64,000 nt of DNA from Tolypothrix sp. PCC 7910. Lineage in GTDB: Bacteria; Cyanobacteriota; Cyanobacteriia; Cyanobacteriales; Nostocaceae. The notes beneath the pieces were generated by a model that did not search any database, was not told the DNA's origin, and saw only the letters and a program-made list of their open reading frames with translations. The stretch lies in the NCBI RefSeq assembly GCF_011769525.1, contig NZ_CP050440.1, positions 4,651,501 through 4,715,500 on the forward strand, written 5' to 3'. Below, in pieces: positions 14,652-21,599 of the stretch. Each line of letters starts with the position of its first letter. Within the stretch, counting starts at the first letter, position 1. The position numbers and the translations under genes were made by a program.

Positions 14652-15659
14652 CTACAACTTTAATTCCAGACTAAAATTCCCGAACAATATCTTGCCCAAT
14701 TCCTGAAAATCTAACCCAAACAACTGGGATACACTAATTTTTGCCTTCTCACACACAGGAATAATCAACTTCACTAAATGATAAGGCTGATTTTGATTTG
14801 TTTTTGAGGCAATCCTCAACGATTCCATGATTCTCCCTAAATCCCCCAATAAATTCAAATCCTTGCCAATTGCTTGTTCAAACACCAACAAAATTAATTG
14901 TAATTTTCGGGTTAACTCGATTGGAATAGGTTCATATCCTAATTGGGGAGTAAGTGCGATTAATTCACTAATTCCTTGAATATTAACTCGATATTTCTCT
15001 ATTTCCTCTTCGCCTTTAACTTCCTGTCCTAACCACCCATAACAGCGAGAACAAAATCCCGCAGGTGAAAACTTAGCCATTATAGGTAAACGCGAACCAC
15101 AATGAGGACATTCTTCTATTAATCGCTGTTTGTGAATCACACAAAATTCTACATCCTTAAATGACCATAATAATGGTTCATAGATAGTTTTGTTCTCCCG
15201 CATCCACTCTTCCCAACAACAAGGACACCAAGCGCGGTAGTTGCGAAATAACCCCTTGTCATAAATCATTCCTTTCCAGCTTAAAAGGGTCAAAAAGCGT
15301 AAATCCTGACGCATTGTTAACTCTTCTAAGATAGTGACTAACTTTCCTGTCATTTCTCGCATTCCGTTGATAGTCGGTTTCGCGTCACTATTTCCCAATA
15401 GGTGACTCAGATTTTTTGACAATAGCTCAGATTTATCCTCATCTTTGAGGATCAGTGGCGCAATTTCTCCCATAACGAGCTTTTGAGATGTCAAACAATG
15501 CGCCTGCGCCAAACGATGGAGATAGCTACTAAGACTTTCTGCGTAGGGAGTTCCCACCGCCACAGGTTCAAGAGAGAATAACCGACTCCGTTGCGGGATT
15601 TCTAAAGGTTTTAGATTCCAATGTTCTAAGTAAATAGTCATCCCTCTTGGATTAACCAT
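14652..15659 (-). CDS. tniQ: TniQ-family transposition target selector (short form)
   Basis: 335 residues (329 from the ATG seven codons in). It begins in the usual TniQ way (LEIPQRSRLFSLEPV then PYAESLSSYLHRLA) and has zinc-binding cysteines C145/C148, H176, C184/C187 and C203/C206 (WCPCCWEEW, ECPHCGS, FCSRCYGWLG). It lacks the long C-terminal DNA-binding extension of the TnsD-like protein at 19966-21363. In Tn7-like elements with two selectors, the short TniQ serves guide-directed insertion and TnsD serves homing. It is downstream of xre on the minus strand with a 32-nt gap, divergent from tnsAB. No cas genes follow; a transposase fragment lies downstream. Its partner is therefore unknown. 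Confidence 0.85.
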   Translation of the reverse strand: MVNPRGMTIYLEHWNLKPLEIPQRSRLFSLEPVAVGTPYAESLSSYLHRLAQAHCLTSQKLVMGEIAPLILKDEDKSELLSKNLSHLLGNSDAKPTINGMREMTGKLVTILEELTMRQDLRFLTLLSWKGMIYDKGLFRNYRAWCPCCWEEWMRENKTIYEPLLWSFKDVEFCVIHKQRLIEECPHCGSRLPIMAKFSPAGFCSRCYGWLGQEVKGEEEIEKYRVNIQGISELIALTPQLGYEPIPIELTRKLQLILLVFEQAIGKDLNLLGDLGRIMESLRIASKTNQNQPYHLVKLIIPVCEKAKISVSQLFGLDFQELGKILFGNFSLELKL

Positions 15660-15691
15660 TACGCTGGTACTTTAGTTTTAACAGCCAAATT

Positions 15692-15952
15692 TCAGGAATT
15701 AGTTTCCGATTCACTCTTAACCTCGATGCCGTAATTAACGAAGAGCTCGGAGACAGAGATCTCCAAAGCTGCCGCTAACTTAACAATATTTTTTAACGAA
15801 GGGTTACGCTCTCCGTTTTCGATACCTGAGATGTAGTTGCGATGAAGCCCTGACTTTTCAGCCAGTGCTTCTTGGGATAAATCTAGCTCTCGCCTTCGCC
15901 GCCTAATCGCTTTGCCAAAGCGGTACTCAATACTGAAGTGTTTTTGTGTCAC
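15692..15952 (-). CDS. XRE-family transcriptional regulator
   Basis: 86 residues from a GTG start. A helix-turn-helix of the HTH_3/Cro type fills most of it: LDLSQEALAEKSGLHRNYIS followed by IENGERNPSLKNIVKLA. It heads a two-gene minus-strand unit with tniQ and is divergent from tnsAB, so it is placed to control both. A palindrome (15959-15973) sits just upstream of its start and a half-site lies inside the first codons (around 15929-15936), which suggests autoregulation. Xre regulators of transposition or guide genes are known in some CRISPR-associated Tn7 elements; a similar role here is inference. Confidence 0.85.
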   Translation of the reverse strand: MTQKHFSIEYRFGKAIRRRRRELDLSQEALAEKSGLHRNYISGIENGERNPSLKNIVKLAAALEISVSELFVNYGIEVKSESETNS

Positions 15953-15958
15953 AAAACC

Positions 15959-15973
15959 ATACTGAACCAGTAT
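15959..15973. promoter_or_regulatory. Candidate XRE operator
   Basis: ATACTG AAC CAGTAT is a perfect 6-bp inverted repeat with 3-bp centre, 7 bp upstream of the xre start codon on its own strand. The half-site ATACTGAA recurs at about 15929-15936, 30 bp away (three helical turns), within the gene. The layout fits repressor binding at its own promoter. Binding is inferred. Confidence 0.45.
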
Positions 15974-16125
15974 TGCCGTTAAATCTATCTACTATCAGTG
16001 GATTTTTGCACACTATAAGTGTTATAAAGTTAAGTAATATAGCATCAGACAAGCAGGTTCCTAACTTTATGGTCTTATTTTCATAGACTCATAAAATCAA
16101 GTGCAAAGCGCTTAGTAAGGACTAT

Positions 16126-19976: not shown

Positions 19977-21363
19977 TGGATTAGTAACATACGAATCTTG
20001 GGATTTAAAACAGCTTTCTATTCCATCTCGTAGTTTGTTGTATCAATTACAGCCTGTTGGCATTAGAACACCAATGGTGGAAAGCCTTACAGGATATATA
20101 GAAAGATTAGCGGAAGCTCATTGTATACCTCCAGATGTATTAATTTCACGAATAATTACACCATTACTAAAACAAATATTTTTGAAATCTCGAACTAGTA
20201 GAGATTTACGTTCTCTTTTCGACCGTGCCACAGCCATAAATGGTACAGGAAATATAGCAAGAGATTTAGTACAAGCGCTTCAGAAGCTAACGCTTATAGA
20301 AGATTTGCACTTGCTGACCCTGCTATTTTGGTGTGAAATTATTCCCACACGTAATTTGTTTCGTACCCAAAGCGCTTGGTGTGCTGTATGTTATGAAGAA
20401 TGGAGTTTGAATAACCAAGTAATTTATAAACCACTACTTTGGACTATAAATTCCGTCAAAGTATGTGCTTTACACAAAATATGTCTATGTTTGCAATGTC
20501 CTCACTGTCAGCAAGAGTTGCCACTACTAAGTTGGCGATCGAGACCTGGTTACTGTTCTAAGTGTGGTGGTTGGTTAGGTATGAATCTTCCTGTCAAGTC
20601 CGCCTCAGAACTTATGGCTTGCTCAACTTTATCTAAAGAAGAATTACATTCGCAAACTTGGATAGTAGAGGTTATTGGAGAATTAATTTCTTCCACCCTA
20701 TCTTTTAAGTCTCCACCAGTAAAAGAAGAAATTGCCAAGTCTTTGAGTCTGCTCATAGATGCAGTGACTGATGGTAATATAGCCGAGTTTGCTCGGTTGA
20801 TGGGAATACCGAAGAATACTTTATGGATGTGGCAGACGGGTAAAGCTTTACCAGTGCTTGATATACTTCTGAAAATTTGTTATCGCTTAGAAATATCTCT
20901 GCTTGATTTACTAAAACCAGAACAACTTGCTGTTAAATCTTTTACGAAAATCTCACACAAAACTTTTCGGCGATCGCCCACACTAAGAGCATCTCCAAAA
21001 CTTTTCGATGCTAATCAAGTACAAGATGCTTTGTTAGCAATCCTTGCAAGCGACAAAGAACCACCACTAACAATGGAAGAAGTAGCTACAGGTCTAGGAT
21101 ATGATAGGCGGACAATTTTCAGGCACTTTCCAGATTTATGCCGTGCTATTTCTGCCAAATACCGTAGTTATAGTAAAGCATGTCATACAGAAAAGATACA
21201 GCAGTCTTGCAGAGAAGTTAAGCAGATTGTACTTAAGTTGCATCATCAAGGAGAATACCCTTCAGAAGCTCGTGTGTCTGAAATAATGACTAATCCTGGA
21301 TATCTCCGTTACAAACAGGTTCGTGCTGCTTTAAATGAAACACGACGTAAAATTGGATTCTAA
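19966..21363 (+). CDS. tnsD: TnsD-like TniQ protein, probable tRNA-Val homing selector
   Basis: 465 residues from the ATG at 19966, chosen because the TniQ fold starts there (LSIPSRSLLYQLQPV) and it overlaps tnsC by 11 nt like the previous junction; an upstream in-frame start at 19858 would lie deep inside tnsC. Zinc ligands: C139/C142, H170, C178/C181, C197/C200. Beyond residue 205 is a long extension with at least two helix-turn-helix-like segments (MGIPKNTLWMWQTGKALP and LGYDRRTIFRHFPDLC), as expected of TnsD, which reads the attachment site. It ends 162 bp before a tRNA-Val gene, the likely target. Family assignment is strong; the exact target is inference. Confidence 0.87.
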   Translation: MLANGLVTYESWDLKQLSIPSRSLLYQLQPVGIRTPMVESLTGYIERLAEAHCIPPDVLISRIITPLLKQIFLKSRTSRDLRSLFDRATAINGTGNIARDLVQALQKLTLIEDLHLLTLLFWCEIIPTRNLFRTQSAWCAVCYEEWSLNNQVIYKPLLWTINSVKVCALHKICLCLQCPHCQQELPLLSWRSRPGYCSKCGGWLGMNLPVKSASELMACSTLSKEELHSQTWIVEVIGELISSTLSFKSPPVKEEIAKSLSLLIDAVTDGNIAEFARLMGIPKNTLWMWQTGKALPVLDILLKICYRLEISLLDLLKPEQLAVKSFTKISHKTFRRSPTLRASPKLFDANQVQDALLAILASDKEPPLTMEEVATGLGYDRRTIFRHFPDLCRAISAKYRSYSKACHTEKIQQSCREVKQIVLKLHHQGEYPSEARVSEIMTNPGYLRYKQVRAALNETRRKIGF

Positions 21364-21419
21364 AGCTATAAACTTAAAAAGGGTAGACTTAGTTAGCTTC
21401 TTTCTCTACATATGGAAAA

Positions 21420-21494
21420 TTGGAAGCATAACTTTGCCGCCCTCTATTGGAACCATAAGCTTGCCGTTGCGGCAAAGTTATGGGTAAAGTCACA
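21420..21494. mobile_element. Candidate right terminus of the Tn7-like element
   Basis: Two 20-bp direct repeats (21420-21439 and 21447-21466, core CATAACTTTGCCG / CATAAGCTTGCCG, 17 of 20 identical, period 27 bp) and a 13-bp inverted copy at 21470-21482 lie between tnsD and the tRNA. Read from the tRNA side, the DNA from 21494 inward starts TGTGAC, as Tn7-like ends begin with TGT. The next five bases, TAAAT (21495-21499), would be the target duplication, and the end lies 31 bp beyond the tRNA 3' end. Mixed repeat orientation is not typical, and 21453-21483 also forms a hairpin that could terminate tnsD transcription. Confidence 0.45.
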
Positions 21495-21525
21495 TAAATA
21501 ATTTTAGTCACTCTACCAATAGCAA

Positions 21526-21599
21526 TGGACGTAACTGGATTCGAACCAGTGACCTCTACGATGTCAACGTAGCGCTCTAACCAACTGAGCTATACGTCC
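21526..21599 (-). tRNA. trnV-GAC: tRNA-Val (anticodon GAC)
   Basis: The minus strand folds into a full cloverleaf: acceptor stem GGACGTA paired with TACGTCC, D-stem GCTC/GAGC, anticodon stem CTACG/CGTAG with loop TTGACAT (anticodon GAC), variable AGGTC, T-arm ACTGG TTCGAAC CAGTT, discriminator A. CCA is not encoded. The 3' end faces the Tn7-like element, 31 bp from the proposed element end, as expected for insertion directed by a TnsD reading the tRNA gene. No stem is damaged, so the tRNA should be functional. Confidence 0.97.

Follow-up and report, generated by a model that had tools for sequence, protein, structure and literature searches.

A type I-B2 CRISPR-associated transposon of the PmcCAST kind downstream of tRNA-Val(GAC) in Tolypothrix sp. 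PCC 7910

The closest described systems to the element considered here are PmcCAST and the type I-D transposons associated with CRISPR (clustered regularly interspaced short palindromic repeats), collectively CASTs. In the reports on them, TnsD reads a tRNA gene for homing and recruits TnsC and TnsAB, and TniQ connects Cascade (the CRISPR-associated complex for antiviral defence) and the transposase for guided insertion (PMC10293859, PMC11406308, PMC12719977, PMC12585508); work on the sister type I-D CAST assigns tRNA-adjacent homing to TnsD and guided insertion to TniQ (PMC10293859). The stretch of DNA at issue, here called the window, is 64,000 nucleotides of Tolypothrix sp. PCC 7910 (contig C1:4651501-4715500 of an 8.76-Mb genome in 7 contigs). 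Its initial annotation had pointed out a Tn7-like element at a tRNA-Val(GAC) gene with fused TnsAB, TnsC, two TniQ-family selectors and ‘no visible guide system’, and had raised the prospect that a two-selector element without Cascade represents a distinct targeting mode. Is a new targeting mode needed here? It is not, and with that a false lead is removed. The observation was a good one, cut by the window edge, and the element is almost certainly a complete type I-B2 CAST, orthologous to PmcCAST, downstream of tRNA-Val(GAC) and most likely with two routes of insertion.

Positions below are those of the window, negative ones lying to its left (the window coordinate being the position in the retrieved locus L009 minus 20000), and the 80 kb on the left side were examined. 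The alternative also allowed for by the initial annotation, with Cascade and array to the left of what the window shows, turned out to be right: extension of the contig leftwards, which it had advised, found both inside the element ends. Four consecutive plus-strand genes, cas6-cas8-cas7-cas5, occupy -11355 to -7532 on the same contig, and together with an array of five repeats they span 7.0-11.4 kb left of the window.

-11355 to -10693, plus strand: cas6 (PDB 8fcj_B, E 6e-132; PADLOC Cas6)
-10690 to -9113, plus strand: cas8 with an internal Cas11 region, 388-525 (PDB 8fcj_I, E 0; PADLOC Cas8)
-9135 to -8167, plus strand: cas7 (PDB 8fcj_C, E 2e-205; PADLOC Cas7)
-8170 to -7532, plus strand: cas5 (PDB 8fcj_A, E 1e-131; PADLOC Cas5)
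-7283 to -6960: CRISPR array, five identical 36-bp repeats and four spacers of 34-38 bp

Cas6, Cas8, Cas7 and Cas5 match, over their full or near-full length, one set of PDB type I-B complex entries, the source of which is Nostoc sp. ‘Peltigera membranacea cyanobiont’ 210A. In a whole-genome search allowing up to 3 mismatches the 36-bp repeat is confined to this array. Neither cas3 nor cas1 was recognised among the 18 element open reading frames of at least 200 amino acids, a check in which the 943-residue frame was scanned over its last 302 residues only, frames of 210, 216 and 216 residues stayed unassigned and cas2 was not sought. The absence of a visible guide system therefore stands for the window, whose portion of the element showed neither a cas gene nor an array (both begin 7.0 kb to its left), but not for the element.

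The genes that had been read within the window are borne out by their Pfam domains and coordinates:

1 to 21494: the part of the element within the window (the whole spans -11802 to 21494)
14652 to 15659, minus strand: short tniQ, 335 amino acids, residue 7 being the PmcCAST start (Pfam TniQ, E 9e-21)
15692 to 15952, minus strand: xre, 86 amino acids (Pfam HTH_3)
16126 to 18828, plus strand: tnsAB, 900 amino acids (Pfam TnsA-like N domain, TnsA-like C domain and rve)
18825 to 19976, plus strand: tnsC, 383 amino acids (PDB 8fcu_Q match)
19966 to 21363, plus strand: tnsD, 465 amino acids, the homing selector (TniQ domain; PDB 8v32_J match)
21526 to 21599, minus strand: tRNA-Val(GAC), the homing gene

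The fused tnsAB has motifs which we take to be its catalytic ones, tnsD ends 162 bp from the tRNA gene just as had been described, and xre and the short tniQ, the second selector gene of the initial annotation, are divergent from plus-strand tnsAB-tnsC-tnsD. The short TniQ matches PDB 8fcu_P with E 2e-207 over all 329 amino acids of the chain, and that entry also contains Cas and TnsC chains; TnsAB matches 9bw1_M (E 0, residues 1-898), TnsC 8fcu_Q (E 3e-239, residues 1-383) and TnsD 8v32_J (E 7e-171). Identity to the named Pmc locus, L057, is 92% for TniQ, 91% for TnsAB, 91% for TnsC and 94% for Xre. In the matching Pmc genome, G123, equated with L057 through common TniQ coordinates, Cas8 identity is 89%, and some 18 kb separate Cas8 from TniQ, as against some 24 kb here. 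Because the parts, the gene order, the tRNA-Val adjacency and Cas8 all match the Pmc locus or genome, the element is placed as a PmcCAST orthologue, and the kinship with I-B2 and I-D CASTs noticed at the outset was rightly seen, with PmcCAST providing the matches. Membership of the type I-D CASTs was considered and rejected, as the Cascade matches type I-B PmcCAST chains.

Where does the element begin and end? It is 33,297 bp long (contig C1:4639698-4672994) and is flanked on both sides by a 5-bp duplication:

-11807 to -11803: target-site duplication TAAAT, left copy
-11802 to about -11640: left end with four TnsB-type sites, starting TGCGACTTCACCCATAAGCTTGCCG
21418 to 21494: right end with three TnsB-type sites; read inward from 21494, TGTGACTTTACCCATAACTTTGCCG
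21495 to 21499: target-site duplication TAAAT, right copy

The core of the TnsB-type sites is (C/G)ATAANNTTGCCG. A strict motif, GAACCATAANNTTGCCG, occurs 3 times genome-wide, twice in the left end and once in the right, and its reversed control 0 times. The gap between element edge and tRNA-Val(GAC) is 31 bp; for the type I-D CyCAST, insertion 30-33 nt past the tRNA gene is reported (PMC10293859). In two genomes of the same genus, G015 and G016, the left flank is followed by 89 bp and then by the tRNA-Val flank, the element being absent at the site. All the anatomy of a type I-B2 CAST is thus present: TnsAB, TnsC, short TniQ, Cascade and an internal array, and in addition TnsD with tRNA-adjacent insertion, TnsB sites at both ends and a 5-bp duplication.

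How would the two routes run? To judge from the work on PmcCAST and the type I-D CASTs, from which the activity of each step is extrapolated, TnsD would bind the tRNA-Val gene and recruit TnsC and TnsAB, with insertion about 30 bp beyond the 3′ end of that gene, and the present insertion would be an anatomical record of such an event. On the guided route, CRISPR RNAs from the five-repeat array would load Cas5-6-7-8 together with Cas11, itself produced from within cas8; this Cascade would be bridged to the same TnsC-TnsAB by the short TniQ. Xre would, on the same analogy, be a regulator.

Does the short TniQ keep company with Cascade or with the transposase? Among 217 genomes of the family, a full-length TniQ (at least 331 residues matched, at least 86% identity) is present at 20 loci in 19 genomes, and Cas8 of at least 83% identity is found in 17 of the 19, though only in pieces in G121, G140, G151 and G187 and with a stop in G110. 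It is at most 24 kb from tniQ on the same contig in 12 of these 17, and on a different contig of a fragmented assembly in the other 5 (G079, G110, G135, G140, G151). TnsAB is 87-100% identical at 15 of the 20 TniQ loci (at some of these present in pieces); a single locus, that of G202, is at about 50%, those of G137 and G204 and the second one of G129 are at 43-45%, and near the G186 locus none was among the matches listed. L061, L062 and L067 have TnsC at 36-37% identity as against TniQ at 74-89%. Since TniQ and Cas8 co-occur over diverged TnsAB and TnsC backbones, it is Cascade that TniQ tracks, not the transposase, and this co-inheritance, a pattern in sequence, supports the short TniQ as the likely partner of Cascade. 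The 217-genome survey brought up no case in which an intact short TniQ was shown to be without Cascade on a contig spanning the place.

Several observations weigh against a complete, two-route PmcCAST orthologue. TnsD is 56% identical to that of the Pmc locus. Two of the 19 TniQ genomes are without a proper Cas8, nothing being matched in G019 and only a piece of 33 residues in G160 (the G160 contig ends 3 kb past tniQ on the cargo side). A short TniQ of at least 86% is lacking in three genomes whose backbones are close to ours, G117 (TnsAB 91%), G011 and G210 (both TnsAB 76%); as for Cas8, G011 has none, G117 has a piece of 35 residues, and in G210 a piece of 163 residues lies on a different contig, so the guide module can be missing as a whole. 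At the insertion site, G015 and G016 additionally are without 343 bp beside the left duplication copy and have the 89 bp of other sequence instead, so that they do not show the site before insertion with single-base accuracy. Lastly, 0 of the 4 spacers matched plasmid and phage records at E 0.1; one spacer, searched in its own genome, was found in the array copy only (the remaining three were not searched there). As to the 343-bp stretch itself (L009:7855-8197), it had no similarity elsewhere among the sequences retrieved up to that point and is perhaps the trace of an earlier insertion.

Might this be a type I-B2 CAST by descent that has lost mobility or guidance in its present host? Only four spacers, none of known target, an array and ends that are single-copy in the genome, and a transposase fragment with repeat debris beside tniQ are what such a loss could leave; however, TnsAB, TnsC, TnsD, TniQ, Cas5, Cas6, Cas7 and Cas8 are uninterrupted, with full or near-full-length matches, and both ends and the duplication are intact, and we regard the loss as unlikely. 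The possibility that Cascade is mere defence cargo of a protein-guided Tn7-like element, unused by TniQ, draws on the type I restriction-modification genes that the element also bears and on cas genes as plain cargo being on record in PMC10293859, but it is very improbable in view of neither cas3 nor cas1 being recognised among the element frames of at least 200 amino acids, of Cas proteins and TniQ matching PmcCAST entries that contain both, and of TniQ and Cas8 remaining together over differing TnsAB backbones. A Tn7-like element with two selectors and no guide system, its short TniQ partnering Xre or some other protein, would agree with the lack of cas genes in the window part and with dual TniQ/TnsD elements being reportedly common (1,048 tandem loci) and in some branches mostly without Cascade (PMC10293859). 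It is already refuted by the left flank, where the stretch from the left end to the window contains Cascade and array, a finding that the initial annotation had itself named as refuting it. Also against it is a TniQ that is a full-length PmcCAST match and accompanies Cas8 in 17 of 19 genomes, and this reading, with the distinct targeting mode once built on it, is almost certainly wrong.

For the type I-B2 CAST, how then is the homing tRNA chosen? Thirty TnsD loci, the best of a longer list, were considered, and the 16 with a TnsC of at least 88% identity in the retrieved stretch were kept for TnsC and TnsD trees; of the 14 left out, 13 had no TnsC match in the stretch and one, L094, a TnsC of 44%. 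CAST status is not shown for all 16, G117, G011 and G210, without a short TniQ of 86% or above and the latter two with a TnsAB of only 76%, being among them. TnsD of the 16 falls into four strongly diverged clades, each beside one tRNA gene: Val-GAC (6 of 6), Val-UAC (4 of 4), Ala-GGC (3 of 3) and intron-bearing Leu-UAA (3 of 3). Two of the three Leu loci, labelled Ser(AGA) with an intron by ARAGORN, were reassigned to Leu(UAA), since an alignment of their exons pairs almost every base with the locus called Leu(UAA). On the TnsD tree the four tRNA labels need 3 changes, which is the minimum; on the TnsC tree there are 9, against a shuffled mean of 8.8, and values as low came up in 154 of 200 shuffles. 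The TnsC tree is weak, with 4 of its 13 inner branches starred, but on the starred branches alone one Val-GAC locus groups with an Ala-GGC locus, and another grouping brings together two Val-UAC loci and a Val-GAC locus. In five cross-clade pairs compared in 150-base bins, identity falls from 87-99% where tnsC ends to 66-84% over the opening bin of tnsD and 48-62% over the next; the same-clade pair L073/L074 is at 92-100% throughout tnsD, and another, L068/L072, at 97-100% through it except around a gap of about 78 codons.

Two kinds of exchange have probably occurred: homing has changed by replacement of tnsD and the adjoining right end as a block, the break being at the tnsC/tnsD junction, and the Cascade-TniQ module has been transferred whole from one backbone to another, across TnsAB proteins of no more than about 44-50% identity. 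For the right end, joint transfer with tnsD is suggested by its position. Outside the 16, one tRNA serves more than one TnsD type, since L077, L080 and L097, from the 14 left-out loci, also adjoin tRNA-Val(GAC), with TnsD 41-56% identical to ours; near L088 and L093 no tRNA was found. TnsD exchange is already in print in general terms, and the exact pattern of tnsD clade, tRNA and junction was not found in the literature searched, to judge from listings and passages. A separate case is the nearest relative, G013 (L053:4537-5694; TnsC 99%), which has lost about 78 codons in frame within the TniQ domain of tnsD and whose homing route may be dead.

The remaining features of the element are these:

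1404 to 7645, minus strand: cargo, type I restriction-modification genes (specificity, methyltransferase, restriction) and a 210-amino-acid protein (PADLOC)
14335 to 14631, minus strand: fragment of a REP-associated/IS200-type transposase, 98 amino acids (Pfam Y1_Tnp, profile 4-85 of 121)
-6485 to -6129 (L009:13515-13871), plus strand: C-terminal remnant of a V-K-like tniQ

The 210-residue cargo protein had no Pfam match. Flanking the restriction-modification genes are paralogous pairs of a 109-residue and a roughly 950-residue protein, at 8236-11450 and at -2229 to 934; the first large paralogue has GUN4 in its last 302 residues, the portion scanned, and the second is CHAT-NTPase-GUN4 with a partial PADLOC match to PD-T4-6. 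At 11820-13565 two separate open reading frames make up an nSTAND1 NTPase gene, which is possibly broken. Repeat debris, rather than cas genes, had been reported to follow the short tniQ, and so it does: behind it are four copies of a 42-bp-period tandem repeat at 14036-14235, together with the transposase fragment, whose NCBIfam match to REP_Tyr_transpos is under the family cut-off. Those repeats were considered as CRISPR debris and rejected, having no spacer-like variable parts; the confinement of the 36-bp repeat to the real array also disfavours that origin. Rfam, run on L009 and three other TniQ loci, gave a single match, Cyano-1 RNA. The V-K-like tniQ remnant adjoins the I-B2 array within the I-B2 element, and the genome has three further V-K-like transposition loci, at 6.95, 7.20 and 7.85 Mb of G000:C1 (L108, L109 and L110). 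Two Cas12k genes are located near L109 and L110, at about 16 and 19 kb from the respective tniQ, so that, in addition to the I-B2 CAST, the genome probably has two of type V-K. The tnsB of L108 is truncated, that of L110 appears by eye to be split, and in L109 a second TnsC-like gene adjoins tniQ.

The PmcCAST orthologue added here is complete and bounded, and differs from PmcCAST in its TnsD and its homing tRNA. Together with its relatives it forms a natural panel, a single kind of backbone being combined with four TnsD types matchable to four tRNA genes. With such a panel the TnsD code for reading a tRNA gene becomes directly testable in a laboratory strain.

Set among known systems, the element shares with the dual TniQ/TnsD Tn7-like elements without CRISPR the use of one transposase with two TniQ-family selectors. 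Tandem TnsD-like relatives (e.g., G118 and G154, neither in the table of genomes with a Cas8 match) have two long adjacent TnsD-like proteins, of 525-527 and 460 amino acids, whereas here it is one short TniQ that accompanies Cascade. Type I-D CASTs (CyCAST, McCAST) likewise have a fused TnsAB, dual TniQ/TnsD and tRNA homing (PMC10293859, PMC11406308); unlike them, the present element has a type I-B Cascade, and Cas10d and cas1 were not recognised in it. With PmcCAST (Tn7744), the type I-B CAST of solved structure, from Nostoc sp. ‘Peltigera membranacea cyanobiont’ 210A it shares gene set and order, i.e., tnsAB-tnsC-tnsD by tRNA-Val, divergent xre-tniQ and Cascade across the cargo, the homing gene being tRNA-Val(GAC) here but tRNA-Val(UAC) in PmcCAST. 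It is an ordinary type I-B2 CAST, apparently intact, and new as an individual member.

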